Positions 42,754-57,327 of a DNA stretch of 64,000 nt are shown here, piece by piece (the stretch's first letter is position 1; each line of letters begins with the position of its first letter). A program made the translations under genes and the position numbers. The notes below the pieces were generated by a model. It searched no databases, was not told the origin of the DNA, and saw only the letters and a list, made by a program, of their open reading frames with translations. This DNA comes from Blastopirellula marina DSM 3645. Its GTDB lineage: Bacteria > Planctomycetota > Planctomycetia > Pirellulales > Pirellulaceae. Location: contig NZ_CH672376.1 of NCBI RefSeq assembly GCF_000153105.1, positions 4,004,485-4,068,484 on the forward strand, in the 5' to 3' direction.

Positions 42754-44289
42754 TTAAAGCAGCTCCCCATGCCAGAACCAGCACGCATCTTGCAGCCGCC
42801 GAAAGATCCAGAGCCGCTCGCCGGCGCTCGTTTCGATCCAGTAGTAATCTCGGCGCACAAACGCTTGACGCCACCACCGTGATTCGATTCGTTCTGGTCC
42901 CCAGCAAGCGACGATCTCTGAGCGCGTTTGCTTCCAAAAGAAAACGACAGGGGGGCCATCCGGCGTCACGGCGATTACTTCTATCGGCCGCGGCTGAGGA
43001 AACAACGCCGTCGGACGATCGAGCGCCTGAAAACAGCGCAGGTGAGAGGTGAAGGAGACGGCGCTCGTCTCGTTCGCCGCATGCAGGCGAACCGCATGCT
43101 CAGGCGTCGCCTCCGGCGACAACTGCGCCACGCCGATCGCCTGATCGCCCAGCCGACAGCTGAGTCGATCGACCAACTTCGCCAACTGCCGCGCCTCGTC
43201 TTGCGAGCGCCCCGCCAACCAATCTTGCTGCGCTGCGGAGAGGGGCGCTACCTCGCTCGCATCCAACGTCATGCGAACCAGCGGCGCCGTCAGACGCAGC
43301 TTCTCTAGCTTCAGTCGCAACAGTTCGCCCAGCCGCCGCTCGTCTGCCACCGCTTCGCAAAGCCGCAGCGAGGTCTCCCACGTCTGTCGGTTTTCCATGT
43401 TGACCAGGCAAAGCAACTGCCGGACCCCCAGCCGCCGCGGCGTCAGCAATCCCAATAGCCGCTTGAGCAGCAATTGCCACAGTTGCTCAAGCGGCGCTGG
43501 CTGCGTGATCCCCTCTTCCAGACGCTGGTCGACTTGAAACTTTGGCAATGGGCGGCAGGGAGTGATCATTTCCGGCAGTTGGCCGCTCCATTGATCGAGT
43601 CGCATCAGCAGCGACTTCCCGCAGCGTTTCGCGAGTGACGCGCGATCGAGGGCCAGGACTTGCCCGATCGTCGTTACGCCCAGCCGATGCAGCTTGTGAA
43701 GCGTCGCCTCCGGCAAACGAAGCGCCTCGATCGGCAGCACTTCTAACCGCTTCCCGCTGGCGATCACCGCTGGTTGGCCCGCATGCGCCAGGAAGTGAGC
43801 GCCTGCCCAGGCGATTCCGACCGTATCGGCCACGGCGATTCGCCCGTCAAGCCGCCGCTTGGCCAACGACTGGCCTAACTGCTCGGCCAGCGTTTGTTCG
43901 TCCCCAAAAAAGTGAGCAATGCCGGTTACGTCGAGAAGCAAGCACTCTGGCGGCTCAGCATCTTCGAGCCCAATACAAAAACTAAATCGCTCGCAGCGCA
44001 GCGCAATTTGCTGCAGCGCCAGCTTGTCGTCTTCGGCTCTCCACGGCTCGCTCTGCAGCAGATCGCGCGGTCGCGCCAGCGAGCGCACTTCGGAGATCGG
44101 CATGCCGCTGCGCACGCCGCGACTGCGTGCGGTGCGATTGCAGTAACGAACCAGTTCGCCCTGCTTGGTTTCGGTCGACAAGACGAACATCGCCGCGGCC
44201 AGCTCTGGCTGGGAGATGGTCAGGCGTTGAATCGGCCAATCAGGAAACCAGAGACATAAGACTCGCTTGGCGGCTGCTAGTAAACTCAT
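42754..44289 (-). CDS. imuB: ImuB, Y-family polymerase-like mutasome protein
   Basis: 511 residues from ATG 44289 (MSLLAAAKRVLCLWFPDWPI). Y-family landmarks remain: ARSRGVRSGMPISEVRSL, CLLLDVTGIAHFFGDEQTLA, AVADTVGIAWAGAHFLA and the thumb-like LHRLGVTTIGQVLAL. The catalytic acidic residues of active Y-family enzymes are absent from the N-terminal strand (LWFPDWPIQR), as in known ImuB proteins, which act as adaptors between the clamp, ImuA and DnaE2. It overlaps imuA by about 50 bases and is followed four bases later by dnaE2, so the three are one transcript. Confidence 0.9.
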   Translation of the reverse strand: MSLLAAAKRVLCLWFPDWPIQRLTISQPELAAAMFVLSTETKQGELVRYCNRTARSRGVRSGMPISEVRSLARPRDLLQSEPWRAEDDKLALQQIALRCERFSFCIGLEDAEPPECLLLDVTGIAHFFGDEQTLAEQLGQSLAKRRLDGRIAVADTVGIAWAGAHFLAHAGQPAVIASGKRLEVLPIEALRLPEATLHKLHRLGVTTIGQVLALDRASLAKRCGKSLLMRLDQWSGQLPEMITPCRPLPKFQVDQRLEEGITQPAPLEQLWQLLLKRLLGLLTPRRLGVRQLLCLVNMENRQTWETSLRLCEAVADERRLGELLRLKLEKLRLTAPLVRMTLDASEVAPLSAAQQDWLAGRSQDEARQLAKLVDRLSCRLGDQAIGVAQLSPEATPEHAVRLHAANETSAVSFTSHLRCFQALDRPTALFPQPRPIEVIAVTPDGPPVVFFWKQTRSEIVACWGPERIESRWWRQAFVRRDYYWIETSAGERLWIFRRLQDACWFWHGELL

Positions 44290-44956
44290 GAGTCGTCCCC
44301 GCGAATCGATCGATTTGAACGACAACGTTGTTGCGCAGCGCCCTGCCATGGCTGTAGACGCTTTCGACCTGATACCGCGGCGATGCGCTGCAGGAGGGGA
44401 CCGAGCGGACCAACAAGCGTGCGTCGGCCCAAGCGGAATGCCGCAGCGCTGCCGCAGGTCGCAGCAGAAAGCCGACTCCGCACGACTCTTCGGCAGCTAG
44501 TTGCAGTCGCCGCAGCACCGTCGCGGAAGCTTGCTCGATGTCGGCCCACACCAGGCCGATCGCTTTGCAGCGGAGCGCCTCTTCGCATGCCCACCAAGCC
44601 TCCTGCTTTGTTTGGGGTCGCACGATCAAGATTTTGGCCAGATCCAAGCCTAAATTCGCCAAAGCGGCAGGCGAAATCTGCCGTCGACTGTCGATCACCA
44701 GGAACGTCTGATTGCTTGCACAAACGTGTCGCGCCGCGATCAACGCCAACGTCCCTGCACCGCTCGCGGGGGTGCAGCCGATCCACTCAATCATTCCCCC
44801 GCGTCGTACGCCGCCGCAGGGAAGTAGTTCATCCAGCGCCGTAGAACCGGTCGATGTAATGTCGGCGGCGCGGCGCCCCCCATATTCGCTTTGGCGAATC
44901 TGCCGCTGCAAATGGGCGATCGTCTCTTGTTTGGCGTCACGGTGCATTTCCATCAT
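44240..44956 (-). CDS. imuA: ImuA-like protein (RecA-superfamily mutasome component)
   Basis: 238 residues from ATG 44956. The segment STALDELLPCGGVRRGGMIEWIG followed by CTPASGAGTLALIAA corresponds to the RecA-like core with a degenerate P-loop, and FLVIDSRRQISPAALANLGLDL follows, as in ImuA/SulA-like proteins. The start at 44956 is preferred because more upstream starts would place the 18-base near-palindrome 44977-44994 inside the gene. First gene of the imuA-imuB-dnaE2 operon. Confidence 0.85.
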   Translation of the reverse strand: MMEMHRDAKQETIAHLQRQIRQSEYGGRRAADITSTGSTALDELLPCGGVRRGGMIEWIGCTPASGAGTLALIAARHVCASNQTFLVIDSRRQISPAALANLGLDLAKILIVRPQTKQEAWWACEEALRCKAIGLVWADIEQASATVLRRLQLAAEESCGVGFLLRPAAALRHSAWADARLLVRSVPSCSASPRYQVESVYSHGRALRNNVVVQIDRFAGTTHEFTSSRQASLMSLVS

Positions 44957-44976
44957 GGGCAGGACCTCGACACGGA

Positions 44977-44994
44977 GTGTATACATACGTACAC
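44977..44994. promoter_or_regulatory. Candidate operator (SOS box-like near-palindrome)
   Basis: gtgtatacatacgtacac pairs GTGTAT with GTACAC around a six-base centre with one mismatch in the outer six. It lies 21 bases before the imuA start and 75 bases before the divergent SRAP gene, the place expected for a shared LexA-type operator. Known LexA boxes of other phyla differ, so the regulator is inferred only from position. Confidence 0.45.
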
Positions 44995-45068
44995 TTCCCG
45001 TCAAGCGTCGAGCCGCGCAGGATAGAGCAGGACGCCAACCAAACGCTTACCCCGCAGCGAGTTAAAAA

Positions 45069-45752
45069 ATGTGCGGACGTTACACTCTGCGAACCCAACT
45101 CAATCAAGTGCTGCAGCAATTTGCAGCCGAGAGTTCCAGCGCCACGTGGGAGCCCCGTTACAACATCGCCCCCACGCAACACGCGCCGGTCGTGTTGATC
45201 GAAGAGGAACGCCGCGTCTTGCAGACGATGCGCTGGGGGCTGATTCCCAGTTGGGCGAAAGAAGCGTCTCTCGGCGCCAAGATGATCAACGCACGCGGTG
45301 AGACGGTCGCCGAGAAACCAGCGTTCCGCGCCGCGTTCAAACGCCGCCGCTGTCTGATCCCCGCCGATGGTTACTACGAATGGCGCCGTAGCGGCGCGAA
45401 GAAGCAGCCGTACTACTTTCACCAGCCCGACGACCAACCCTTCGCAATGGCCGGCCTGTGGGAAGAGTGGACCGGCGAAATCAAAGGCGAAACCCATCCC
45501 TGGCGCTCGTTTACCATCATCACCACCGAGTCCAACGACCAAACCGGCAAAATCCACGACCGCATGCCGGCAATCCTGACCGAAGAAGACTGGGACCTCT
45601 GGCTCGACCCCGAGTTCGCCGACAAACCACGCCTGCAAAAGATGCTCCACCCGCTGGCGGACGAAGAGTATTTTGAGATCGATCAAGTCAGCACGCGAGT
45701 CAACTCGCCCAAAAATGACTCGGCCGAGTGCGTGCAGGTGGAAGAAGGCTGA
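45069..45752 (+). CDS. SRAP (HMCES/YedK) abasic-site DNA-protein crosslink enzyme
   Basis: 227 residues. The catalytic Cys2 follows the initiator Met (MCGRYTLRT). Asn74 in MINARGETV, Glu104 in DGYYEWRR and His163 in KIHDRMPAIL complete the active site known for this family, which forms a thiazolidine crosslink with abasic sites in single-stranded DNA. It diverges from imuA and shares the intergenic near-palindrome, which fits co-induction by DNA damage. It ends before a bidirectional terminator and the island junction. Confidence 0.95.
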   Translation: MCGRYTLRTQLNQVLQQFAAESSSATWEPRYNIAPTQHAPVVLIEEERRVLQTMRWGLIPSWAKEASLGAKMINARGETVAEKPAFRAAFKRRRCLIPADGYYEWRRSGAKKQPYYFHQPDDQPFAMAGLWEEWTGEIKGETHPWRSFTIITTESNDQTGKIHDRMPAILTEEDWDLWLDPEFADKPRLQKMLHPLADEEYFEIDQVSTRVNSPKNDSAECVQVEEG

Positions 45753-45792
45753 CATAACCCACTGAGAGCCCTGCGGGCTTCCTACCACCCAA

Positions 45793-45822
45793 AAAACGGG
45801 CGACCCAAAAGTCACCCGTTTT
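45793..45822. terminator. Bidirectional intrinsic terminator (chromosomal copy)
   Basis: aaaacgggcgac pairs with gtcacccgtttt around a six-base loop (one mismatch), with A-run on one side and T-run on the other, so it can serve SRAP on the plus strand and the tRNA on the minus strand. A matching hairpin with a compensatory base pair change lies at 57191-57220. Confidence 0.8.
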
Positions 45823-45832
45823 GATGTAAATC

Positions 45833-45901
45833 CTAGCTGAGAAACAGCTTAGAAGTAGCGGCGGAGGGATTCGAACCCCCGACACGCGGATTATGATTCC
45901 G
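45833..45901. repeat. attachment site repeat, left end, with 46-base tRNA 3' fragment
   Basis: Identical to 57231-57299. Bases 45856-45901 are the 3' half of the tRNA (minus strand) up to the anticodon stem, after which the sequence diverges. This is the original host 3' half displaced by insertion. Bases 45902-46063 hold no gene. Confidence 0.92.
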
Positions 45902-46063: not shown

Positions 46064-46092
46064 TTGCAAATATTTTACATTCTCAGTATAAT
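46064..46092 (+). promoter_or_regulatory. Sigma70-type promoter of the island operon
   Basis: TTGCAA at 46064-46069 and a perfect TATAAT at 46087-46092 are separated by 17 bases, in an AT-rich stretch 112 bases before the first small gene. Short inverted segments (aatag/ctatt) just upstream could be an operator. Confidence 0.6.
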
Positions 46093-46203: not shown

Positions 46204-46512
46204 ATGCCTGACGCTCTCTCTAGGCTTTGCCGCAAGCGGCTTGGGATTGATCTAGCTTCACTGTCTGAAGATCAATTGCGGGCCCATCTTCCCGCAATCG
46301 TCGAAGCGGTTCACGCTGAAACTGTCGATACGTCGAACCTTCTCAAGCGTCAACGGTTTGAAGTCGCCAAGGCTGCCTCTCTGCGTGCCCACTCTCTTGC
46401 TTCCTTCATCCCGAATGGCGAATTCATCAGGGATGAGACGCTGCCACCTTTCGATTCGTGGTCCCAGTCTGCCGACCCGAATAGTTGCCTTGAATCCATT
46501 CTTCCAATCTAG
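46204..46512 (+). CDS. Island operon gene 1, small unknown protein
   Basis: 102 residues, no recognised family. The first half is helical (LCRKRLGIDLASLSEDQLRAH). It contains EVAKAA at residues 53-58, encoded by the same 18 bases (46360-46377) that encode EVAKAA in gene 6 (47994-48011). First gene after the promoter and leader hairpin. Confidence 0.6.
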   Translation: MPDALSRLCRKRLGIDLASLSEDQLRAHLPAIVEAVHAETVDTSNLLKRQRFEVAKAASLRAHSLASFIPNGEFIRDETLPPFDSWSQSADPNSCLESILPI

Positions 46513-46521
46513 AGGGCAGTC

Positions 46522-46836
46522 ATGGCACTGAAAAATATCTACCAACTTTACGCACTGTCGTCCGGTCAAACTCGCCCATCCCCTTGCTACGTCTATGCAG
46601 CGGATGAGAGCACTGCACGCAGCAAACTCGCTGCCCGATTGCCTGACGCTGAAATCCAAGACAACGTCTTTGAGTATTCAGGGGCAAACGGTTTCACGTT
46701 GGGCATTCTCGCCGGTGAAGGTGAGCGAAAAATGGTTCTCGGGACCTATTTCACTACTGTCATTCAGCGTGAACGACTGAAACTCGAAGACGTGCTTACA
46801 AAAGCAGACCTAGCCGAAATCCAAGCGGACATTTAA
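46522..46836 (+). CDS. Island operon gene 2, small protein with shared VYA-ARL motif
   Basis: 104 residues, no recognised family. It contains YVYAADESTARSKLAARL at residues 23-40, one of four ungapped matches in this operon (genes 2, 3, 7 and 8). The rest looks like a small alpha/beta protein with mixed polar content and no membrane segment. It begins nine bases after gene 1. Confidence 0.65.
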   Translation: MALKNIYQLYALSSGQTRPSPCYVYAADESTARSKLAARLPDAEIQDNVFEYSGANGFTLGILAGEGERKMVLGTYFTTVIQRERLKLEDVLTKADLAEIQADI

Positions 46837-46845
46837 GGAGCAAGC

Positions 46846-47361
46846 ATGAAGGGGCTTTACGCCATCACGGCGATTTCAGAGGGAAATCCGGTCGGTGCTT
46901 TCGTGCTTGCCATGAACGCAGACGACGCAGCACACAAAGCATCGGCCCGGCTTGGCGAATCGGGACGCATGACACACCTTTACCGGCTTTGCGATGCAAC
47001 GGCCAGCACTCTGAAACGAAACCAGCTTCTACAGAATTGCTCAAAAGCCGATCAGGTTGAATTCGTCACCGAAACGCTGCTTGAAATCGTCGACGTGATG
47101 CAACGCCAAGTTGTTTTTCTTCAGTCGACGGTAACGGAAATGGCCAGAGCCTTGGAGATCAAAGAGAAAATGCAAAGCGAAACCAAGCCCTTCAAGATTT
47201 TCAGATTTGCAGTTCAGAACCCTGAGGGGGAAGTCAAGTTTTATGAAACGATGGCCCCTAGCTTGGGTCCCGCTTTCAAAGTTGCTATGAATTTTGCCAA
47301 AAGCCAGTACGGCCCTGAAGCCAAGCCAGATTTTATCGCAGAGGTACCGGACGATGAATAA
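46846..47361 (+). CDS. Island operon gene 3, protein with shared motif and helical centre
   Basis: 171 residues, no recognised family. The shared motif FVLAMNADDAAHKASARL is at 19-36. A helical segment (LLEIVDVMQRQVVFLQSTVT) follows at about 84-103, then a second alpha/beta part with FRFAVQNPEGEVKFYE. An AAGGAG-type ribosome-binding site precedes the ATG. Its stop overlaps the start of gene 4. Confidence 0.65.
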   Translation: MKGLYAITAISEGNPVGAFVLAMNADDAAHKASARLGESGRMTHLYRLCDATASTLKRNQLLQNCSKADQVEFVTETLLEIVDVMQRQVVFLQSTVTEMARALEIKEKMQSETKPFKIFRFAVQNPEGEVKFYETMAPSLGPAFKVAMNFAKSQYGPEAKPDFIAEVPDDE

Positions 47362-47749
47362 GCTGCGTGAAAGCTATTTTGATGCCCTCAAAGCATCTTC
47401 CCGCAAACAGCTCGTCAGCAAGTCTGCAACTGGTCCCAAAATCTACTGCCTGCGAAATTCGACAGGAAGCATCATCGGATATGCTCCCGGAGAGCAAGTT
47501 GCCCCAGCTGAGATAAAGCGTCAAATTGAGAAGGAAGAGGTAGCAAAATCTGCTCAATCTGGGCTTGGCATTGCTGACGGACTTGCATCTGAATTGCAAG
47601 AAGACCCAAATTCGATGTTTGATGCGTCTGCTTTGCTACCAAAATATGATATCCAATCGTTTGGAGTCGAGGAGATAGCAAAATCTGTTAATTCTGACGA
47701 TGACAGCCTTATTGGCATTTTTCCGGCATTCCTTCGCCCCCGAAAGTAG
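47354..47749 (+). CDS. Island operon gene 4, small unknown protein
   Basis: 131 residues from ATG 47354, overlapping gene 3 by eight bases, which indicates coupled translation. An early SIIGYAPGEQVAPAE segment is followed by charged helices and an acidic tail. No family recognised. Confidence 0.6.
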   Translation: MNKLRESYFDALKASSRKQLVSKSATGPKIYCLRNSTGSIIGYAPGEQVAPAEIKRQIEKEEVAKSAQSGLGIADGLASELQEDPNSMFDASALLPKYDIQSFGVEEIAKSVNSDDDSLIGIFPAFLRPRK

Positions 47750-47751
47750 TC

Positions 47752-47952
47752 ATGAAACTATCGGAACAACTTCAGCAAGTGATGGCTCAAGTCCACGGAA
47801 AGCTAGTTCAAGCCAACGTGCAAAAGGTCTCGAAGGCCTGCGGGATCTCTGCCAGCAATGTCTATCGCTTGCGAAATGGCGGAACCCCCACGCTTTCTAC
47901 CTTGGAACTTTTGGCTGTTTACTTTGAATCCCAGGATGGGAGCCAATCATGA
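47752..47952 (+). CDS. Island operon gene 5, small XRE-type HTH protein
   Basis: 66 residues. VQKVSKACGISASNVYRLRNGG at about 23-44 is a Cro/CI-type helix-turn-helix with the usual following helix (LSTLELLAVYF). It probably binds DNA and may regulate the operon or the island. Its TGA overlaps the ATG of gene 6. Confidence 0.75.
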   Translation: MKLSEQLQQVMAQVHGKLVQANVQKVSKACGISASNVYRLRNGGTPTLSTLELLAVYFESQDGSQS

Positions 47953-48284
47953 GCGATCCTAACGCGATCTTAGATTCTGCGTTTCCCAGATTGGAAGTCG
48001 CCAAGGCTGCCCAAGTTGCTGACGGGGCCGAAATGGTAAACCGTACGCAAGGCAAGTCTGGGGGGTCAGGTTCAGCAGGGGAAACGCGTGGGAGGCCTAG
48101 AAAGTCTGGGCCTAAGCTGCATCTCAATCCCGAAAACCCGTTACTTACTTCGATCGTCTCAAAAGATGACGAAGGGCATAAGTGGGAAGCCGGATCAGTG
48201 CTGCAAGTGTTGTTCGCCAATGGCCAGACGCGTAGCGTCGTCCTGCTTCACAACATCGAGATTGCCCCTCTGGATATGGAGTAG
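47949..48284 (+). CDS. Island operon gene 6, small basic protein
   Basis: 111 residues, no recognised family. It has a low-complexity centre (GKSGGSGSAGETRGRPRKSG) with an AT-hook-like GRPRK core that could contact DNA. EVAKAA at residues 16-21 matches gene 1 at protein and DNA level. Confidence 0.6.
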   Translation: MSDPNAILDSAFPRLEVAKAAQVADGAEMVNRTQGKSGGSGSAGETRGRPRKSGPKLHLNPENPLLTSIVSKDDEGHKWEAGSVLQVLFANGQTRSVVLLHNIEIAPLDME

Positions 48285-48288
48285 TCGC

Positions 48289-48627
48289 ATGAGATCTCTG
48301 TTTTTGATGCGTTACAAGATGACGCGTTCGCCGCTTGTCTCGCTCATGGCGGTTTATGCGGTGAGCTACCAGGAAGCAGCGTCTGCTTTCGATTTTCGGA
48401 TGTGGAACAAGAGAATTGAGCGTGAGCAGTACCAGCTTTTGAGCCATCGTCAAATTCTGGAAGAAATGGTGCATCTCCAGATTCACCTTGATTTCATTCG
48501 CAAGCTGCCAGACGACCAGCTTTGTGAGTTTTTGCGGGATCGAAAAGCCAGACAACTGGCTGATAAACAGAGCGTTGAACGCACCGTCTTAGACCTTCTC
48601 GAACAACTGGAACCAATCAGGAATTAA
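48289..48627 (+). CDS. Island operon gene 7, small protein with shared motif
   Basis: 112 residues from ATG 48289, four bases after gene 6. The segment AVYAVSYQEAASAFDFRM at 21-38 is a diverged copy of the shared motif. The C-terminal two thirds are predicted helical and charged (LEEMVHLQIHLDFIRKLPDD). No family recognised. Confidence 0.6.
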   Translation: MRSLFLMRYKMTRSPLVSLMAVYAVSYQEAASAFDFRMWNKRIEREQYQLLSHRQILEEMVHLQIHLDFIRKLPDDQLCEFLRDRKARQLADKQSVERTVLDLLEQLEPIRN

Positions 48628-48629
48628 CC

Positions 48630-49091
48630 ATGAGCACTGTTGCCCAAACCCGTGAAGAGATCCTTCAAGAGATATCCCAGCACGAAACCAGAATTTTCGA
48701 GCTACGCCAATTGCTGCCTTCTGCTCTCAAGTCGTTTTTCCGGTTTCGTTGCCGCCCCGAAAAATTTGTCTGGGTTTATGCCCTGACGCATGAAGAGGCA
48801 GTGCGAAAGCTGCACGCACGGATGAATCTGAACTATGGTGCGAACTGGGAAGTCGCCAGCAGAGTAGTTGATCGGATCGACGACCCCCGCGAAGCTGCCA
48901 ATACCGCAAGCTGCAATCTGCTGACGCATCTGACGCTTGATGACGCCAGGGAATTTGTGAACGACTATCGAGCGAACCAGCGGGGAAGAGCGACAGGCGA
49001 AAAATTGAAGCACGCCCCCCAGTCTCGAATTGAGCAAGACATTGAAAGCTGGGAACTCAATCAGCGACGACGTGAAGGCATGAAGGGGTAG
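48630..49091 (+). CDS. Island operon gene 8, small protein with shared motif
   Basis: 153 residues. It has an N-terminal coiled-coil-like stretch (EEILQEISQHETRIFELRQL), then WVYALTHEEAVRKLHARM at 48-65, the best match to the shared motif, and a charged C-terminal half. Last gene of the operon; the next gene is convergent, four bases away. Confidence 0.62.
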   Translation: MSTVAQTREEILQEISQHETRIFELRQLLPSALKSFFRFRCRPEKFVWVYALTHEEAVRKLHARMNLNYGANWEVASRVVDRIDDPREAANTASCNLLTHLTLDDAREFVNDYRANQRGRATGEKLKHAPQSRIEQDIESWELNQRRREGMKG

Positions 49092-49094
49092 AGC

Positions 49095-49670
49095 TCATTC
49101 AACCAGATAGTTCCCACTTTTCTCTATCGCGTGCAGTTCTTTTATTGAATCGTAAGCAGCATGCACGTCCTTCCGAAAATTCGTCTTGTAATAGGCATCT
49201 AATTCGTCAAGTCCGGACGTATTGCAATTTTCTAGAAGAGTTTTGATCGCGTCGATGCAGTTTTTGCCACGCTCTCCAAAAAAAAGATCGATTGTCAAAA
49301 TATCTGCTCGAAGAGTTGCTCCACAAAGGTCCAAAGGTCCAAAAAATTTGGTGAATTCATCTAAGTCGTTTTCAATGAGTTCATTGTGATCCTCCCTTTC
49401 GTATTTGCTCTTCATTAGTTCTCGCTTGGCAAGTAAGCGTCGTACCGAATTGCCAAATTGAACGACATCGATGGTCAATCGCTGAAACAGTTCGATAGCA
49501 GTTTTTCGTCGCTCGTCTCGGCGAATCATTGCGTGGGCCATCGCAACACTGACGATTGGGCCAAGGATCGCTGCAATAGCTGCTGCCCATGCGGCGACGA
49601 TAGCGGGATTGTCCAAGTTGCTGCCCTTCAAAAATTGAATAACTGAATTTGCCCACCCAAAAAAACACAC
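49095..49670 (-). CDS. Small membrane protein of unknown function
   Basis: 191 residues. One membrane helix (AIVAAWAAAIAAILGPIVSVAMAHA, about 23-47) near the N-terminus is followed by a cytoplasmic helical domain rich in charged residues. No recognised family. It is the only minus-strand gene on the left side of the island and is independent of the operon. Confidence 0.6.
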   Translation of the reverse strand: MCFFGWANSVIQFLKGSNLDNPAIVAAWAAAIAAILGPIVSVAMAHAMIRRDERRKTAIELFQRLTIDVVQFGNSVRRLLAKRELMKSKYEREDHNELIENDLDEFTKFFGPLDLCGATLRADILTIDLFFGERGKNCIDAIKTLLENCNTSGLDELDAYYKTNFRKDVHAAYDSIKELHAIEKSGNYLVE

Positions 49671-50059
49671 AAACGTTAGCAGTTATGGCCACTTCTGCGG
49701 AAAAATGGACACCCTACTTTTTAACGCGATTTTCGCCCATTTTGACTATGTTCGCGTGGCTTGGGTAGTCGTCTTGCAATGGCTGCTCTTGGGGAGTGAG
49801 AGCACTGTTGCGGACGACTCGATTGGTTGAGCGGGCCCGGCTTGAAGCTTACAGACCTTCAGGCTTGGGCCTTGCTCCCTTTCTCTATCCTCTTCTATTC
49901 GTCGCCTGACTTTCTTTCTTGGAAAGTGCCATTTAGGGTCTGCCCGGATTTGGCCCGAAATCCCTTTCGCCTTTCCCGAAGATTTGGGCGTTTTGGGTCT
50001 GGCTAGCCAAGTGCCAAGTAGCCTATACTCTACTTGTCCAATCGTGTGGAGTTTTGGCT
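49671..50059. other. Island intergenic region before the serine recombinase
   Basis: 389 bases with no supported gene. It is pyrimidine-rich around 49870-49920. TATACT at about 50025-50030 is a plausible -10 element for the recombinase gene, but I see no good partner at -35. Confidence 0.45.
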
Positions 50060-50647
50060 ATGAAGAAAATGAAGAGAATTGCTGTCTATATTCGAGTCTC
50101 GACAATTGGTCAAAACCAAGCTGGCCAGAAGCGAGAAATTGCTAAATGGCTTTCGGGAAATTCAATTGATCCTGAAAGCGTTCTTTGGTTTTTTGACAAA
50201 GAGACAGGCGACACCCTGACGCGTCCAGCCTTTGAGAAGCTGCAAGGTGCGGTCTTCAATGGTGAAGTTGGCACAATCGTAGTTTGGAAGCTCGATAGGC
50301 TCTCTAGGAAGCTTCAGGATGGGATCAACACCCTTTGCAATTGGTGCGAAAAGGGCCTGCGGGTTGTTTCTGTCACGCAGCAATTAGATTTTGCGGGAGC
50401 TACCGGAAAACTCATAGCTTCGGTGTTGTTTGCTGTCGCCGAAATGGAGCAGGAAACCAGAAGAGAACGCCAGAAGGCAGGCATCGACGCTGCCAAGGCC
50501 AATGGAGTCTACTTGGGCCGCAAGCCGGGAACCACCAAAGGCAAGCCAGCCAGAGCTATGGCATTGCGTGAGAAGGGGCTAACGCATGACGAAATCGCTG
50601 TGGCGATGGGTGTTAGTCGCCGTACCGTAATCCGGTATCTGGGCTGA
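50060..50647 (+). CDS. Serine recombinase (resolvase/invertase family)
   Basis: 195 residues from ATG 50060 (a TTG six bases earlier is also possible). The catalytic domain has YIRVSTIGQNQAGQ with the active serine, VVWKLDRLSRKLQDG with the conserved Asp-Arg-Leu-Ser-Arg, and AEMEQETRRERQKAGIDAAK. A C-terminal Hin-type helix-turn-helix (GLTHDEIAVAMGVSRRTVIRYL) completes it. It resembles resolvase/invertase enzymes that act on short inverted sites; its target here is unknown. Confidence 0.92.
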   Translation: MKKMKRIAVYIRVSTIGQNQAGQKREIAKWLSGNSIDPESVLWFFDKETGDTLTRPAFEKLQGAVFNGEVGTIVVWKLDRLSRKLQDGINTLCNWCEKGLRVVSVTQQLDFAGATGKLIASVLFAVAEMEQETRRERQKAGIDAAKANGVYLGRKPGTTKGKPARAMALREKGLTHDEIAVAMGVSRRTVIRYLG

Positions 50648-50808
50648 TTTGAATTAAGGGTTTACTAGTTCCCTTCCCACACACAAAGCGAGGTAGTGAA
50701 ATTTGAATTGAGGGGGCACAATTCGATGTGGAAACTGAAATGAGGGGCACGTAATCGGAGTCTATTTCCGTTTTAGAAATCTTGAAACCTTTTTGATCGG
50801 ATTCTTAG

Positions 50809-52243
50809 TTCAACTTTTGCACTTTTACCGCCTCTGGAATTGCTCTTCCGAAATAGCGTGAGCCTCCGTCAAGATGCTTGGGTATCTCACATCCAGGCAC
50901 TTGAGCAAGGAGGCTCACAATGGAACTTGTACCCGAATTTGCTGCCCTTTTGCAACCCTTTGCCCAAGCGATGACGACTCCGACCTTCGAGAGTCTGGCG
51001 ACGCTGATGGCCGGGTGGGTGCTGGCCAGTCGACGGACTGTTACACGCATGATTCTCGCGGCGGGCGATTCGGCCGACAAACATTTTTCGTCGTACCATC
51101 GCGTGTTCAGCGCCGCCCGCTGGTCGCTCGACCGCGTCGGTCTGGCGGTGTTCGACTTGATCGAACCGTGGATCGATGGCGACGTCCTGTTGGCGTTGGA
51201 TGACACGTTGGCCCGCAAGCGCGGCTTGAAAATCTTCGGCTGCGGCATGCATCATGATCCGCTTATTTCAACGCGCAGCAAGGCGGTGATGAATTGGGGG
51301 CATAGCTGGGTCGTGCTGGGAGTAATCGTCGAGTTGCCCTTTCGTCCAGGACATTATTACTGCCTGCCGATTTTGTTTCGTTTGTATCTGAACAAGGCGA
51401 AGGCCAACCAACATCGCCGCGTTTATCGGACCCGACCAGAACTGGCGGTGCAGATGCTCGGCACGCTCTGTTCCCACCGGAAAAACAGGCGTTTTCATGC
51501 CGTGGCCGACAGCGCCTACGGCGGTCAAAGCGTGCTGAACAATTTACCGCCGAATTGCGATTTGACCAGCCGATTGCTGATGGACGCTCGTTTGTACGAG
51601 GCGCCGCCCGTCAGAAAACCGGGAACCAACGGCCGACCACGCAAGCGAGGCAACCTGTTGCCGACGCCGGCGGCCATGCTGGAGGGGCGCTGCCGGCGAT
51701 TGTCATTCAAAATTTATGGGCGAACCGACACGGCTCGTGTCGCCCATGTCGAAGCACGAGTTCATAGCGCTCCCGACCGACCGCTACGAGTCGTGGCAGT
51801 CGAACCGCTGACCGGCGGCCGCAAACCGCAAGCGTTTTATTCGACTCGTTGTGAAGCGACAGCCGAGCAGGTGATCGCTTGGTACGCTCAAAGGTGGAGC
51901 ATCGAAGTCGCGTTTCACGATAGCAAGCAACAGCTTGGTTTCGAAGAACCGCAAGGCTGGAGCCGCCGCTCGGTCGAGCGCACCGCCCCGGTCGCGATGT
52001 TGTTGTATTCGCTTGTCGTGCTGTGGTTCGCTCGCGCAGGTCATCGCCAATACCAACCGCTGGCTTGTCCCTGGTACACGTCTAAAGCCGACGCTTCCTT
52101 CGCCGACATGCTGGCCACGCTCCGCCGGCAAACCGTGCGACAAAAGGTTTTGTCACTCGCGCTGAATGGCCCAGGCTCGCGAAAAGTAAGACAACTCCTG
52201 GAACATACGCTCGCAATCGCCGTGTAAAAGTGCAAAAGTTGAA
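50809..52243 (+). mobile_element. Insertion sequence, 1435 bp, IS4-superfamily/IS701-like
   Basis: The ends are perfect 20-base inverted repeats (TTCAACTTTTGCACTTTTAC at 50809-50828 and its complement at 52224-52243). The 5-base sequence CTTAG is duplicated on both sides (50804-50808 and 52244-52248). One transposase gene fills it. The insertion interrupts the minus-strand AbiGi-like gene 13 codons before its original stop. It is apparently intact and recent. Confidence 0.93.
50920..52227 (+). CDS. DDE transposase of the insertion sequence
   Basis: 435 residues. The catalytic acidic residues are recognisable in LALDDTLARKRG, HAVADSAYGGQSV and YAQRWSIEVAFHDSKQQLGF. Fold and motif spacing fit the DDE_5/IS701-like branch of the IS4 superfamily. 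The frame is uninterrupted, so the enzyme may be active. Confidence 0.92.
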   Translation: MELVPEFAALLQPFAQAMTTPTFESLATLMAGWVLASRRTVTRMILAAGDSADKHFSSYHRVFSAARWSLDRVGLAVFDLIEPWIDGDVLLALDDTLARKRGLKIFGCGMHHDPLISTRSKAVMNWGHSWVVLGVIVELPFRPGHYYCLPILFRLYLNKAKANQHRRVYRTRPELAVQMLGTLCSHRKNRRFHAVADSAYGGQSVLNNLPPNCDLTSRLLMDARLYEAPPVRKPGTNGRPRKRGNLLPTPAAMLEGRCRRLSFKIYGRTDTARVAHVEARVHSAPDRPLRVVAVEPLTGGRKPQAFYSTRCEATAEQVIAWYAQRWSIEVAFHDSKQQLGFEEPQGWSRRSVERTAPVAMLLYSLVVLWFARAGHRQYQPLACPWYTSKADASFADMLATLRRQTVRQKVLSLALNGPGSRKVRQLLEHTLAIAV

Positions 52244-53095
52244 CTTAGGGGCAAGGATTCGCTTTTCCTTGGGAGAGGGAAGGCATTCAATGTGGCAGTA
52301 TTCCCACTTGCCGTCTTCAATTTTTCGCTCTACTTCCTCAAGTGAAATAATCTGAGCCTTCTGGAGTGCCCGGTAGTAGTACTTCAGATAGGTTGACTCA
52401 GGACTGATTGTTCCAAGCTTCTTAATGAACTCGCTGATTCTTATTGCTTCAGTATCACGACGAACGATTACTCGGAATAGCGGGTTTAATCTGATCCGAT
52501 ATAAAACTTTGCCGTTTCGGACTGCTCGCACCCTCACTCGCTTGAGATCATCCGGGAGAAGGATGGGGAGTCCAACCAGATTTTGCAACATCGACATCTG
52601 ATTGTTGAACACCCTGCTTCTCCACTCTCTTTCAAAAGTGAAATCGTTTGGGTAGCCATCTTCCCCGGAATGGATAGGGCGGTACTGAACCCACAGATAC
52701 TCGTCGTCCTCTGAGAGCCGGTAAAAACATTCTTTGTCGCCATAGATTACAGGTCGCCCGCCATACCTGAAAAGGTCGACCTTATTTAGGGCGATGCCAT
52801 AGCCCGTATATGCAGAGCATTTAGAAAGTGTAATTGGAATCTGTTCTAGCGGTTGCTCAGTGAAACAAACTGCTTTGTGCTTACCGCGTATAGTCCAAGT
52901 TGAATTTCCTTGGTACGTGATGCGACGTGCTCCAGATGGTTTTAGGTAGCCGCATTTTAGAATTTGTTTTAGGCGAGCCATGCCGTTTTCATGCGTCGTT
53001 TGCCCCGCATCATCAATTACAAAGTTTCGCGTAAGGTGAATGACGTAGTCCGTCAAATCGGATCTCGCCTCTCGAATTCGCTCCCAATCGCTCAT
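52082..53095 (-). CDS. AbiGi/DUF2971-like protein with IS-derived C-terminus
   Basis: About 284 native residues followed by 53 residues read from the insertion sequence. Before insertion the frame ended ...LAPKNPIKKVSRFLKRK at 50762, recoverable by removing the IS and one CTTAG copy. Motifs GMARLKQILKCGYLKPS, VCFTEQPLEQIPIT, GYGIALNKVDLFRYGGRPVIY and DFTFEREWR recall AbiGi-type phage-resistance or DUF2971 proteins; this is pattern recognition, not a search result. Starts at 53167-53200 are possible alternatives to 53095. Whether the altered protein is functional is unknown. Confidence 0.55.
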   Translation of the reverse strand: MSDWERIREARSDLTDYVIHLTRNFVIDDAGQTTHENGMARLKQILKCGYLKPSGARRITYQGNSTWTIRGKHKAVCFTEQPLEQIPITLSKCSAYTGYGIALNKVDLFRYGGRPVIYGDKECFYRLSEDDEYLWVQYRPIHSGEDGYPNDFTFEREWRSRVFNNQMSMLQNLVGLPILLPDDLKRVRVRAVRNGKVLYRIRLNPLFRVIVRRDTEAIRISEFIKKLGTISPESTYLKYYYRALQKAQIISLEEVERKIEDGKWEYCHIECLPSPKEKRILAPKFNFCTFTRRLRAYVPGVVLLFASLGHSARVTKPFVARFAGGAWPACRRRKRRL

Positions 53096-53237
53096 TCTGT
53101 TTGCTCGGCTAACTTTCGACTCCAAACGTTTGGAGCTTGGACTTTTTAATCTGCAAAAAGCAGACATTTTAGACATGTCAAATCGTCCCAAATGTCGCAA
53201 TTTCAGGCGTTTTTGAGTTATTCAGTTATAAGTGCGG

Positions 53238-54050
53238 TTATTGGTGAATTGGAGTGTTTGGCCCGAACAATTCGGTGCCGGAATTAATCAGTTCGTCTAA
53301 CTTCTGAAAGTTCTCAGGCGTCGGCGATAGGCTGGATATTGTGAAGGGGCTTCTATGGCCCGCGTCCTTCGCTGATCCTCCTAGATGATAAAGCTGGTCA
53401 TCGCATCTAAGCCAACGGTCATGGTTGCTTGACTCGACAATCAATCGGTACTTTGTTGGCCCGCGTTCGGAGGCGTAGAGGCGAGAGATATTTAGGTACG
53501 ATTGGTATTCAGGCTGGTTGGCTCTGTCTTTGGTGACTAACGTGACGGTTGCAGCATCGGGCAGGTCGTTTAGGTAGCGATGGAACAAACTCGCCCCCAT
53601 GTAAGGATCAGCCCAAGTAAAGTTGCTGAGAGTCGTTTCGCAATATGTCTTTAGTTTGCAATAGGCTTGAAAGGGAGAGTTCGCCTCGAAAACTTCGGAT
53701 TCTATTTCGGTGGGAATCAGGTGAATGGCGTTCAACGCTTGTCGTCGATTTTTATCTAGGATGCTTCGAATTCCATCGATGGCATTGCGGTTTCTGTTGA
53801 TTTCAAGTCCAAGGCTTCCAAGGCTGTCGTCGAAGGTTTGCCACTCGAAGAGGTAGAAATGGCCCGGTTCGGATTGCATGAAATTTCTAACGTCGGTTAA
53901 TAACGAATCGCGATCTGCCGCATACTTTGCCATTGCTCTAGCGATAGTCTGAGGGGTTTGCTGGTCGGGGTAGTCGACTATGTCCTGAATCGGGCGAAGT
54001 AATAGGCCTAGCTTGTAAATCAACTCAGCTTGCTGCTCTTTTCGATTCAT
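53238..54050 (-). CDS. PLD-fold domain protein
   Basis: 270 residues from ATG 54050 (an upstream frame extends to 54191 but reads as noncoding). The N-terminal half is helical. The C-terminal half has FTWADPYMGASLFHRYL, VTLVTKDR and SSNHDRWLRCDDQLYHLGGS, the H-D-R...D...G-S arrangement of phospholipase-D-like domains found in many accessory and defence genes. A single half-site implies dimerisation or loss of activity. It lies 142 bases before the AbiGi-like gene on the same strand and may be functionally linked. Confidence 0.62.
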   Translation of the reverse strand: MNRKEQQAELIYKLGLLLRPIQDIVDYPDQQTPQTIARAMAKYAADRDSLLTDVRNFMQSEPGHFYLFEWQTFDDSLGSLGLEINRNRNAIDGIRSILDKNRRQALNAIHLIPTEIESEVFEANSPFQAYCKLKTYCETTLSNFTWADPYMGASLFHRYLNDLPDAATVTLVTKDRANQPEYQSYLNISRLYASERGPTKYRLIVESSNHDRWLRCDDQLYHLGGSAKDAGHRSPFTISSLSPTPENFQKLDELINSGTELFGPNTPIHQ

Positions 54051-54209
54051 CGCTCGCTCATGTTTCGTTGTAGAAACTCCAATTGATTGGAGCCAGTTTA
54101 CCCTGCTTTTGGCGTGACTGGAATGCTTCCAAGGTCGGGCCGAAAAATCGCCAGAGAGGCCGCTTTTATCTCTTTTAGAAACTAATCCCATAGAGGAATA
54201 GGAATGTAG

Positions 54210-54974
54210 CTAACGGCTATGCAGGTATCTCGGTACTGACAACTTGGACCATCTAGACCATTCTGACCTACAGGACCTCTTAGACTGTCTAGGGAGTTTT
54301 GTCGAATGGCTTTTGAGCGTGTCTTCGTAAGTGAAGTAGCGACCGAAAACCCGTTTCGCTTTGTTGTCGTTCCACTCTGGCCCAAGCTGCTTGGCAATGG
54401 TCGTCCAGGGCTTCCCCAGGTTCGCCATGATGAAAGGAAGTGCGAAAGGGGCGTTACTGTCTCTGGGGCGTCCGCCAAGCATTTCAGGAGAGGTTTCGCG
54501 ATAGTGCTCATTCGCGGTTACCTTGCAAATCCTGTCCAATCGTTTGGAGTCGATAGCCAATGGAACTAGGGCAACGAAGTTGACGTCAGCGAACCTTGCC
54601 AACTTCCAAGGCTCTCTTGCGAATCGTCGCCACTCAAACGCCACGACAGGGAAGCCGGTAGCCCTTGCGTTGGCAATCGCCTGATGGAGCGTGGGGCGAG
54701 ACTTTGGGCCAACCCGATGGCCATTCTCTCCAAGGCCGTAGTACGCTTCAGCAATAGATAGGTTTCGAGCCCTTGCGAATTGCTCGAACTTTGCGACCTG
54801 CCAAGCTGGGGCAGAATTCTTTGCTAGCGATTGACTTGGAGAGTTGCGGCAATAGGTGATTAGCCCGCCCATATCGAAACAATTCTGAAACGATTCGGCA
54901 TCATGTAAGTTGTCTGGAAATAATGCATGAGAGTTTGAGCTATCAAGCGAATCGAATACAATAGAATTGTCCAT
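54210..54974 (-). CDS. Divergent serine-recombinase-like protein
   Basis: 254 residues. A resolvase-type N-terminal domain is suggested by GGLITYCRNSPSQSLAK (a serine after the first strand), RPTLHQAIANARATGFPVVA and EWRRFAREPWKLARF, matching the order of catalytic segments in the serine recombinase fold. The C-terminal 90 residues (GGRPRDSNAPFALPFIMANL, WTTIAKQLGPEWNDNKAKRV) could be a DNA-binding part. It is much diverged and may be a regulator or excision factor. Confidence 0.55.
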   Translation of the reverse strand: MDNSIVFDSLDSSNSHALFPDNLHDAESFQNCFDMGGLITYCRNSPSQSLAKNSAPAWQVAKFEQFARARNLSIAEAYYGLGENGHRVGPKSRPTLHQAIANARATGFPVVAFEWRRFAREPWKLARFADVNFVALVPLAIDSKRLDRICKVTANEHYRETSPEMLGGRPRDSNAPFALPFIMANLGKPWTTIAKQLGPEWNDNKAKRVFGRYFTYEDTLKSHSTKLPRQSKRSCRSEWSRWSKLSVPRYLHSR

Positions 54975-55003: not shown

Positions 55004-55074
55004 TGCGATTGTTGACGCAATCGCAGTCGAATCAAAAGCCCTGCCGAGTTGGTCCTCGGTGGGGCTGTTTTTTT
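55004..55074. terminator. Two hairpins ending in a T-tract
   Basis: A perfect 8-base stem (tgcgattg/caatcgca, 55004-55025) is followed by a 12-base stem at 55037-55066 (10 of 12 paired) and seven T residues at 55068-55074 on the plus strand. Read on the minus strand the second hairpin can end transcription of the HTH gene; on the plus strand the pair looks like the 3' end of a short RNA. Confidence 0.55.
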
Positions 55075-55558
55075 AGCTTGCTGCCTCTGCCTGCTCTAGC
55101 TGTGCCTGAAATGCAAACCAATCTTCAGACAAATAGCCGCCTTCATCTACAGGCTTGGGGGCGATTGGCTGGGCAGGGGCTGGCAAAAATCCCATGTCCT
55201 GTTGCATCATCGCATGCACTTGTCGAGCAATCTGCTCCTGCTCTTCTCTATACAGTCGAAGGCTCGTTTCCTCTGGGGTTTCGGGCCTTTTACTGTTTTC
55301 GTGGGCCTGCTTGGCCATGGCCGCTGCTGCGGCATGTGTGCCGAATTGGCCAGCTTTGATTTGGTGCCGGATAAGTGCCACGCACCTACAAACGGTAGGT
55401 TGATTGATTGGGCCACCCCTTTCCGTCTTGAAGCCCTCTTTCGTGAGGATTTCCGCTGCTTCTGCTTGAGTGTAGCCGAGCGTGTTGCACAGTTCCCAGA
55501 CTCGCGGAAACATGGCTTTGTGATTTTTCAGAAACCGAACGCTTACTGTCATTGACAT
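55073..55558 (-). CDS. Small HTH protein, probable island regulator
   Basis: 161 residues. LGYTQAEAAEILTKEGFKTE and GGPINQPTVCRCVALIRHQI form a helix-turn-helix of the kind seen in recombinase accessory domains. The C-terminal half is helical and Gln/Ala/Glu-rich. It lies between the integrase and the recombinase-like gene. Its promoter spacer holds an inverted repeat, so autoregulation is plausible. Start at 55558 or 55552. Confidence 0.6.
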   Translation of the reverse strand: MSMTVSVRFLKNHKAMFPRVWELCNTLGYTQAEAAEILTKEGFKTERGGPINQPTVCRCVALIRHQIKAGQFGTHAAAAAMAKQAHENSKRPETPEETSLRLYREEQEQIARQVHAMMQQDMGFLPAPAQPIAPKPVDEGGYLSEDWFAFQAQLEQAEAAS

Positions 55559-55649: not shown

Positions 55650-57023
55650 TCAGAAGCCGTAGAGTGATTCCAGCTTGTCAGTCTCTGCAAAAAGCTCTTC
55701 GAAATGTTGGCTCACGTAGTGCCGTTTCATGCCAGCTTCTGCGTGAGCAAGGAAAAGCTCTGTCAGTTCTGGGCGTGCCTTTTCAATTTCGTTGGCGGCA
55801 GACTTGCGAAGATGCTTGAAGCTTCTGGGGTCTTCTTTGAAACCGGCTTTCTTAGTCTGCTTCAATTGGTTGAACGCCAAGCGAACCGAATCATTGACGA
55901 TTAGATTCCCTTTGTCATTTACCTTTTCGGTGTAGAGCGGTAGGCCATTGGTTCCAACCAATAGCGGGCCTTTCGGATCGGAATTCCGATGCTTTTGAAG
56001 CATCTTCAGCGTAGAATGCCAGAGTTTTCCCTTGCTGGGAACCCCTGTTTTGTGACGGTCCCGAATGACTATGCCCGTATCCCAGTCGATCATGTCCGCT
56101 TCCAGCGTGCCAATATCCTTTTGGGTGTATCCAAGATTGAGAGCCAAGGCGATATAAAGCCGGGTCCGCTTGCTGGCTTTCGTCGCTAGGCTCTTGCATT
56201 CGTCAACCGTCCAGAACAATGGCTTGGGTTTGTCGAGCTTCACGCGGCCATAGGTTCGCAAGTCTTTGGGTAGCTCTTTCAGAATGTTCTGATCGACCAG
56301 CCATGTCAGCCACTTGGCAACAGAGTCAAGACGCTTCTTAAGCGTCGCCTTGCTGATTTGGAATTCGCCCCCGCAGTCTACAAAGTTCCATTGCAAGTCA
56401 CGGTAGCGATTGAGAATCGACGGTTCTAGCTGGTCGATGAACACTACCCCCGCGTAGTTGACCCGCAGGAACTTGCGAAAGACTTCCAGCTTCGTCTTGT
56501 CTTCGGCCCATTGCTTTAGGCTGAGTTCGCCTCTTTCGGTTTGCTTGTGGCGATGAGCGAGCCAGAAGTCAGCCAAGGCAGAGATTCGGCGTTCACCTTC
56601 GTAGGGATTGCCAGAGTCATTGCTCGCAATCAATTCAGGATTAAGCCCAGCGTCGAGACCTACTGATTCTATCCAGGCTGGCAGGTCAGGCGACTTCGCC
56701 GCCAAGGGAGTTGGAAGCTTGCGGCTAATGGCTATTGTTGTCGCCTGAATTGGCGGCAGGCTCGTGGCTGGCGATGGAGCGTAGGCAGGGGCGAAGCTGG
56801 CAAGATGTTCCTCTGGAATGAGGACCCCGGTTTCGGTGTAGGGATTCGGGCCCAAACCGTCAACGAATGCCTTCAGTCGTTCCCACTCTCGAAACGCTGC
56901 TTCGTAGCCTTGGCGGTCCTTCTTTCCTCTGCAGGAAGTCTTGAGATAGTACGTCACGCCCCGATAGCGTTTCCGCCATCGCTTCGCATGAGTCGCCCAG
57001 GTTAGTTTGTGTAGATACGGCAC
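55650..57023 (-). CDS. Tyrosine recombinase (island integrase) with atypical catalytic boxes
   Basis: 457 residues. An N-terminal SAM-like DNA-binding domain covers about 140-260 and the catalytic domain about 270-457. LAHAEAGMKRHYVSQHF carries the box III His and the nucleophile Tyr. In box II the sequence is FKHLRKSAANEI, where Lys stands at the usual His position. Box I reads LNLGYTQKDIGTLEADMIDW, without the usual Arg after Gly. The gene lies 231 bases from the intact tRNA, as expected for the enzyme that inserted the island at the tRNA 3' half. Confidence 0.85.
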   Translation of the reverse strand: MPYLHKLTWATHAKRWRKRYRGVTYYLKTSCRGKKDRQGYEAAFREWERLKAFVDGLGPNPYTETGVLIPEEHLASFAPAYAPSPATSLPPIQATTIAISRKLPTPLAAKSPDLPAWIESVGLDAGLNPELIASNDSGNPYEGERRISALADFWLAHRHKQTERGELSLKQWAEDKTKLEVFRKFLRVNYAGVVFIDQLEPSILNRYRDLQWNFVDCGGEFQISKATLKKRLDSVAKWLTWLVDQNILKELPKDLRTYGRVKLDKPKPLFWTVDECKSLATKASKRTRLYIALALNLGYTQKDIGTLEADMIDWDTGIVIRDRHKTGVPSKGKLWHSTLKMLQKHRNSDPKGPLLVGTNGLPLYTEKVNDKGNLIVNDSVRLAFNQLKQTKKAGFKEDPRSFKHLRKSAANEIEKARPELTELFLAHAEAGMKRHYVSQHFEELFAETDKLESLYGF

Positions 57024-57190
57024 GTTGCTTCACTCCCGAAAATGACCTGTTGCCGGTCATGGGGTAGCAACTTACCGAACGCGTTCTAATCGTGCTCAAG
57101 AATCATCGACTCCAATTACCGATTGGAGTTTTTGACCTCTCGGGAGCCCTCTGGGACCACTTTGGGAGCCCTTTGGGTTCCAGGCACAAA

Positions 57191-57220
57191 AAAACGGGCG
57201 ATCCGAAAATCACCCGTTTT
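57191..57220. terminator. Bidirectional intrinsic terminator downstream of the tRNA
   Basis: aaaacgggcgat pairs with atcacccgtttt; compared with the copy at 45793-45822, a C-G pair has become T-A on both arms. A T-run follows in each direction. It ends tRNA transcription on the minus strand. Confidence 0.8.
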
Positions 57221-57230
57221 GATGTAAGTT

Positions 57231-57299
57231 CTAGCTGAGAAACAGCTTAGAAGTAGCGGCGGAGGGATTCGAACCCCCGACACGCGGATTATGATTCCG
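57231..57299. repeat. attachment site repeat, right end
   Basis: Identical over 69 bases to 45833-45901. Bases 57254-57299 form the 3' half of the functional tRNA, so the island brought a replacement 3' half that keeps the tRNA intact. Confidence 0.92.
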
Positions 57300-57327
57300 C
57301 TGCTCTAACCGACTGAGCTACGCCGCC
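57254..57327 (-). tRNA. tRNA with CAU anticodon (elongator Met, or Ile2)
   Basis: The minus strand folds as a complete cloverleaf: acceptor GGCGGCG/CGCCGCU (first pair G-U), D arm GCUC/GAGC, anticodon stem GCGGA/UCCGC with loop AUCAUAA giving anticodon CAU, and T arm with UUCGAAU loop. CCA is not encoded. The body resembles elongator tRNA-Met, though a CAU tRNA-Ile modified with lysidine cannot be excluded. It is the integration target of the island. Confidence 0.93.

Follow-up and report, generated by a model that had tools for sequence, protein, structure and literature searches.

We identified an eight-gene operon in Blastopirellula marina DSM 3645 that is likely the part of a phage satellite with which it hijacks its helper phage, the satellite being an 11.4-kb integrase-bearing island at a tRNA gene. 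We put the probability of this reading at about one half. The operon occupies positions 46204-49091, with all eight open reading frames (ORFs, here g1 to g8) on the forward strand, of a 64,000-nucleotide stretch of contig NZ_CH672376.1 (assembly GCF_000153105.1, positions 4,004,485 to 4,068,484), which we call the window and whose numbering is used throughout. Related operons lie in other small integrase-bearing islands, some of which hold phage head genes while otherwise lacking virion genes; this is what phage satellites carry, which leads to the satellite reading.

The island is bounded by a 111-nt direct repeat (45791-45901 and 57189-57299, 95% identical). The left copy is a partial copy of the 3' end of tRNA-Met with its flank, and the right copy includes the end of the intact tRNA-Met(CAT) gene (57253-57327), the right attachment (att) site spanning 57189-57327 on the reverse strand. 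Enclosed by the two copies are the operon, a resolvase, an insertion sequence (IS), defence-like genes, helix-turn-helix (HTH)-like genes and, beside the tRNA gene, a tyrosine integrase (55650-57023, reverse strand; PF00589 E 6.5e-4, under the cut-off). G+C content drops from about 0.61 in the left flank to mostly 0.47-0.55 within the island, the IS being at 0.60. As in phage satellites, the element is integrative, has att sites and an integrase of its own, and its set of virion genes is incomplete.

Relatives were sought first in 146 and later in 396 genomes from its order, in 241 from its family and in 392 from its phylum, and nine further operons turned up in seven genomes: Bremerella volcania (G101), B. 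alba (G063), a Planctomycetia metagenome-assembled genome (G047), Posidoniimonas corsicana (G119), G267, G168 and G802, the last with three different copies (L059, L060 and L061). At E <= 0.001, g8 profiles matched in 7/396 order genomes and 6/241 family genomes (window included), and the g3 profile had matches in 2/392 phylum genomes; Pirellula staleyi also has a g8 relative (P0014). The first screen gave matches in 19 of the 146 genomes at E <= 0.1, of which the window genome, G101, G063, G047 and G119 were retained for having a gene of their own with similar neighbours. The other 14 were dropped, one after its locus (L009) had been read and the remainder on score, length and frame. A match in G374 (E 2e-5, 63 residues) was read at its locus and not counted as an operon.

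The operon recurs in other tRNA-gene islands, where the sequence-only reading of this DNA had proposed to look for it. Five relatives are bounded by 43-65-nt terminal repeats at tRNA-Met (three), tRNA-His or tRNA-Arg genes and measure 7.9-11.3 kb, so that six bounded islands are known with the window's included (tRNA-Met four times, tRNA-His, tRNA-Arg; repeat spacing 7.9-11.4 kb). Homologues of the window integrase occur in all five (E 9.4e-50 or better) and in L060 (E 6.9e-6), and serine recombinase homologues in four of the five and in L060; no homologue of the window integrase was found in L059, L061 or L062. The examined stretches of G802 and G168 bear tRNA genes, including the contigs of the three G802 operons, at which no att repeat was seen. 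L062 holds just three operon genes (g4-, g3- and g8-like). Homologues of g1 are present in four of the five other bounded islands (L014, L015, L016 and L027; identity 28-40%).

Phage head assembly is indicated by g4. In the two Bremerella islands (L014 and L015) this gene encodes a protein of 227-236 aa that matches the head maturation protease family profile phrog_80 (E 8.6e-13 in L015, 6.6e-6 in L014). The PF04586 scores were E 5.6e-4 for L015 (20.5 bits, cut-off 21) and 0.057 for L014, and the L015 protein also matches annotated prohead proteases (best tblastn E 1e-4). Residues H60, S138 and E164, which may be the catalytic triad of a prohead protease, are invariant in all six homologues. 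In all six, VVSKS precedes the protease domain and KS follows it, and then comes DPN (4/6) or DKN/DLN (2/6) with FDD. The window g4 (47354-47749, 131 aa) aligns with the C-terminal tail of the Bremerella protease and has the tail motifs only (VSKS at residues 21-24, VAKS at 63-66, DPNSMFD at 84-90 and IAKS at 108-111), with no protease family match. The earlier statement that no family could be recognised in the operon thus stands for the window copies apart from g5 and falls for the relatives of g4, whose recognisable prohead proteases point to phage head assembly. A second type of head gene, encoding a Mu gpF-like protein (PF04233 E 3.6e-10; phrog_2662 E 1.9e-20), was found in island L017. 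Head-related genes were therefore recognised in three relatives, as a prohead protease in two islands and a gpF-like gene in one, and none was recognised in the window island.

The two kinds of tail motif are shared by small proteins of the operon. In the window, g1 (46204-46512, 102 aa), g4 and g6 (47949-48284, 111 aa) combine VAK(A/S) with a DPN-type peptide: g1 has VAKA at residues 54-57 and a C-terminal DPNSCLESIL at 91-100, and g6 has an N-terminal DPNAILDSAF at 3-12 followed by VAKA at 17-20, as well as GRPRK, presumably an AT-hook-like sequence. A 21-nt DNA repeat common to g1 and g6 covers VAKA. The ten operons supply 56 proteins, in which the DPN-type expression was counted 16 times, compared with 0.01 in shuffles, and the VxK-type expression, VxK(S/A/T), 41 times, compared with 8.9 (standard deviation 2.9, maximum 20). 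The DPN-type is found in 4/5 g1, 7/10 g4 (window DPNSMFD escapes the expression), 1/1 g6, 3/3 of a further small G802 protein and 1/10 g3, and in none of two g2, five g7, seven g8, five g5, three HTH-g8 fusions and five other neighbours. The VxK-type is found in 5/5 g1, 9/10 g4, 1/1 g6 and 3/3 of the further small G802 protein.

Phage heads offer parallels to such motifs. The HK97 capsid protein is cut after Lys103, before Ser104 (K103/S104). Its first 103 residues form a scaffold domain, according to the accessible portion of PMC10275583, and several internal proteins of phage T4 have in common a short capsid targeting sequence, which proteolysis removes, according to that of PMC5694885. Taken with the tail motifs of the prohead proteases, these parallels suggest a possible protease site in VxK(S/A/T), cut after the lysine, and a possible head-targeting tag in the DPN-type peptide. 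The sharing of both by several proteins, as in T4-type capsid targeting, is observed; entry into heads and cleavage are predictions.

A second feature of the operon is a repeated small domain. The four 18-residue segments reported from the sequence alone are present in g2 (46522-46836, 104 aa; with a homologue in L014), g3 (46846-47361, 171 aa), g7 (48289-48627, 112 aa) and g8 (48630-49091, 153 aa). In leave-one-out BLOSUM62 tests against 41,880 18-mers from 335 window ORFs of at least 60 aa, the held-out segment outscored every 18-mer except the four segments in 4/4 tests, the segments having been preselected from the same sequence. Structure prediction covered g3 and g8 and places the motif within a larger domain: the AlphaFold model of g3 (pLDDT 90) has beta-beta-alpha-beta domains at residues 3-50 and, at the C-terminus, 117-166, linked by a helix (67-112), and that of g8 (pLDDT 89) has a helix (8-31) followed by one such domain (35-83). 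Profile comparison joined g8 to g7 (hhalign 88%, E 3e-6) and, more weakly, to g2 (37%, E 3.5e-4). The proposed duplicated building block is therefore supported: the g3 and g8 motifs sit in the same predicted fold and g8 is joined with g7 and g2, while the other profile pairs are weak.

The best solved-structure match of g3 is the T7 RNA polymerase inhibitor Gp2 (PF16857, PDB 4lk0), whose fold the predicted domain shares; archaeal and eukaryotic ribosomal proteins fit it about as well as Gp2 or better. Comparison with Gp2 by hhalign gave E 0.0038 (g8), 0.093 (g3), 0.16 (g2) and 0.001 (g7), with controls at 0.57 and 0.38, and the PF16857 profile did not place the proteins in that family (1/30 members of the island protein set at E 0.12). 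An assignment of g2 as Icd-like (NF033153) was rejected at 14.6 bits against a cut-off of 25, with 2/30 members at E up to 1. The modelled beta-beta-alpha-beta fold is compatible with the possible host-takeover role proposed earlier. Three G802 operons have the g8 homologue fused to an HTH-like N-terminal part.

The genes form a compact run, as had been described: g3 and g4 overlap by 8 nt, g5 and g6 by 4 nt, and the remaining gaps are 2-9 nt, with start codons of g4 and g7 picked by us within longer listed ORFs. The small HTH protein is g5 (47752-47952, 66 aa), a Cro/C1-type protein (PF13443 E 2.9e-6). The single strong promoter was not upheld, since the one site found (TTGCAA-17-TATAAT, 46064-46092) compares with an average of 3.0 in shuffles. 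The sequence-only reading had overlooked the island borders, the second motif pair of g1, g4 and g6, and the protease form that g4 takes in relatives. Between L014 and L015, ratios of nonsynonymous to synonymous divergence (dN/dS) were 0.26 for g1, 0.05 for g3, 0.07 for the protease g4, 0.14 for g5, 0.18 for g7 and 0.15 for g8, at high synonymous distances (dS 0.9-2.9), which points to functional genes in the Bremerella islands. A sulfotransferase-like gene stands at the operon place of g6 in both (L014 10647-11429, PF17784 E 6e-17; L015 10316-10876), with dN/dS 0.09.

If the operon belongs to a satellite, induction alongside a helper phage would be the moment at which the DPN-type peptide draws its carrier proteins into the assembling head, where a prohead protease could cut them at VxK(S/A/T), after the lysine. 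The protease would be the satellite's own in the Bremerella islands and the helper's elsewhere. The beta-beta-alpha-beta proteins and the HTH protein would serve as small factors for takeover, binding RNA polymerase or some other machine of the helper or the host. A more specific proposal, in which a single head-targeting and cleavage signal marks a whole set of small satellite proteins so that they are loaded, trimmed and delivered with satellite DNA, with T7 Gp2-like takeover factors alongside, is tentative and we regard it as rather doubtful.

Several results weigh against a satellite module. The search for a helper phage was negative: a DPN-type motif is missing from the capsid proteins of G267 and G119, and no PF05065 capsid protein is encoded in the window genome. 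No packaging signal was found, and the window island yielded no recognisable terminase, packaging site or gene for capsid size; the 16 of its ORFs that were scanned gave no capsid, portal, terminase or tail match in Pfam. In IMG/VR neither g8 nor the protease had a confirmed relative, and g8 relatives were absent from INPHARED (50,697 phage records) and from PLSDB plasmids. In eight of the ten operons, the window's included, g4 is 115-132 aa long and too short for a protease domain. Profile pairs among g2, g3, g7 and g8 other than those given above reach 1.6-13.5%, so that g2, g3 and the g7/g8 pair are only weakly related to one another by profile. Synonymous sites of the window genes are saturated and so yield no dN/dS (pN/pS 0.37 for g8, 0.49 for g3). 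For HK97, the consulted part of PMC10275583 gives just the 103-residue scaffold domain. The VxK-type expression is loose and occurs also in 1/2 g2, 3/10 g3, 2/5 g5 and 3/3 HTH-g8 fusions, and is therefore unspecific on its own. Both motif expressions were composed after the sequences had been seen, so that a DNA-level search for DPNxxFD is the fairer test; this one speaks for the satellite reading, with 15 matches in six genomes (about 40 Mb), seven of them within islands, compared with six for the reversed control pattern.

The loci of the eight DPNxxFD matches outside islands were read, and none shows a phage head gene bearing the motif; a longer pattern hit five stretches in IMG/VR, none a plausible helper. 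A protease-like match in G216 (E 7e-4) was rejected as a helper: it lies in an HK97-type prophage, and the ORFs of the 20 kb examined there lack DPNxx(F/L)(D/E/N), as do those of L076 and L077. As a separate observation, the HK97-type capsid protein of G267 (L076 1480-2961) has, by eye, VAKG just before its apparent mature start, which resembles the island motif and may be a clue to a helper, but is a single case that we did not use.

Among other explanations, a transcription-takeover module is a serious rival, albeit an unlikely one. The operon would then encode T7 Gp2-like RNA polymerase binders with an HTH DNA-binding partner, and the DPN and VxK motifs would be docking peptides unrelated to heads. 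The Gp2-like fold and the HTH-g8 fusions in G802 speak for it, but the sequence tests with Gp2 are weak (hhalign E 0.001-0.16; PF16857 1/30 at E 0.12), ribosomal proteins fit about equally or better, and a prohead protease in the g4 slot is left unexplained. That protease, together with the gpF-like protein, is equally unaccounted for if the islands are plasmid-like or mobilizable integrative elements whose operon serves replication or maintenance, the DPN tail docking a host replication factor. We consider this improbable: the scan of 16 window-island ORFs revealed no relaxase and plasmid records contain no g8 relative, although there are replication-initiator-like winged-helix genes (phrog_391 E 4.7e-4 in L014, 0.012 in L027), iteron-like repeats in L014, and serine recombinases.

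Decay of prophages that retained a few head genes would explain why these genes occur singly (the protease in L014 and L015, the gpF-like gene in L017) and why a full morphogenesis set was not recognised. It is, in our estimation, very improbable given the purifying selection in the Bremerella pair (dN/dS 0.05-0.26), the likeness of six islands in size, att ends and operon, and the occurrence of a g8 relative in 0 of the 50,697 phage records.

Besides the operon, the window island encodes a small protein convergent with it (49095-49670, reverse strand; hydrophobic N-terminus by eye; DUF6680 E 8.9e-4, under the cut-off), with homologues at the matching position in L014 and L015, a serine recombinase of the resolvase type (50054-50647, forward strand; PF00239 E 4e-30), a defence-like protein (53238-54191, reverse strand; PADLOC candidate PDC-S05, E 3.8e-9) and a small protein adjoining the integrase (55073-55558, reverse strand; HTH-like by eye), with homologues in L014 (E 3e-16) and L027 (E 2e-9). 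The IS (50804-52248) has a DDE_5 transposase and 25-nt inverted repeats. An ORF with a weak AbiGi-like match (52082-53200, reverse strand; E 0.019) reaches into its right end and is thus apparently shortened by it. Flanking the PDC-S05 gene, and separated by 1.4 kb, are the two arms of a 22-nt inverted repeat (53113-53134 and 54535-54556, 91% complementary), which may delimit a small mobile unit. The protein at 54210-54974 has no family match; it resembles a diverged serine recombinase by eye and has a homologue in L017 (4369-4965, E 1.8e-15). Just beyond the left island end, an SRAP peptidase gene (45069-45752; PF02586 E 1.8e-81) makes up an SOS mutagenesis-type cluster with genes at 42754-45004 that look imuA/imuB-like by eye. 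In L014, four 30-nt repeats (GTGCCAATNTGGACCNTGAA-like; 16233-16373) adjoin a winged-helix gene with a weak replication-initiator match and are possible iterons.

If the satellite reading is true, these islands represent a phage-satellite lineage in planctomycetes, for which we found no satellite report in the open-licence literature. Hijacking would be of an unusual kind, with several small proteins sharing a targeting and cleavage tag and, in two islands, a lone prohead protease alongside. A small fold found across many uncharacterised phage proteins would also gain a testable function. A satellite-encoded head protease as such is already known from capsid-forming phage-inducible chromosomal islands (cf-PICIs).

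In the cf-PICIs, as described in the accessible text of PMC10690885, the head maturation protease is part of a full capsid and packaging set. L014 and L015 have this protease in common with them, but here it stands alone in two islands, is missing from the g4 slot in eight operons, and has tail motifs in common with neighbouring small proteins. Among open-licence papers on satellites with a prohead protease, the text available describes ocean elements without such genes. With caudovirus prohead serine proteases (PF04586, phrog_80), L014 and L015 g4 share the family match and keep a putative H/S/E set, whereas window g4 has tail motifs alone and no protease domain. Satellites can redirect helper heads via acquired capsid or scaffold genes (PMC6893505, in the part available). 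Similar in kind is the Ccm protein of SaPIbov5, which is encoded by the satellite, is homologous to a head protein of the helper and redirects head assembly (PMC8569155, likewise in part), whereas the head protein here is a maturation protease (two islands) or gpF-like (one) rather than a capsid protein. T4 capsid targeting is alike in placing short shared peptides on several proteins, with the function in the islands being predicted; the T4 tags are N-terminal propeptides of 10-20 residues (PMC5694885, in the sections seen), whereas the island DPN-type peptides are mostly C-terminal or late and N-terminal only in g6. T7 Gp2 (PF16857; 4lk0) has a similar fold without a significant sequence relation, and the island domain sits in larger proteins with long helices. 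P4-like satellites, PICIs including the SaPIs, PICMI, PLE and tycheposons are likewise small integrase-bearing islands that depend on or reshape helper particles and carry phage-derived head genes, and no signature gene common to these types and the planctomycete islands was recognised, as far as the available text of PMC11389934 describes them. The planctomycete islands differ from these known satellites in their single head genes, their repeated small domain, their repeated VxK/DPN set and their planctomycete hosts.

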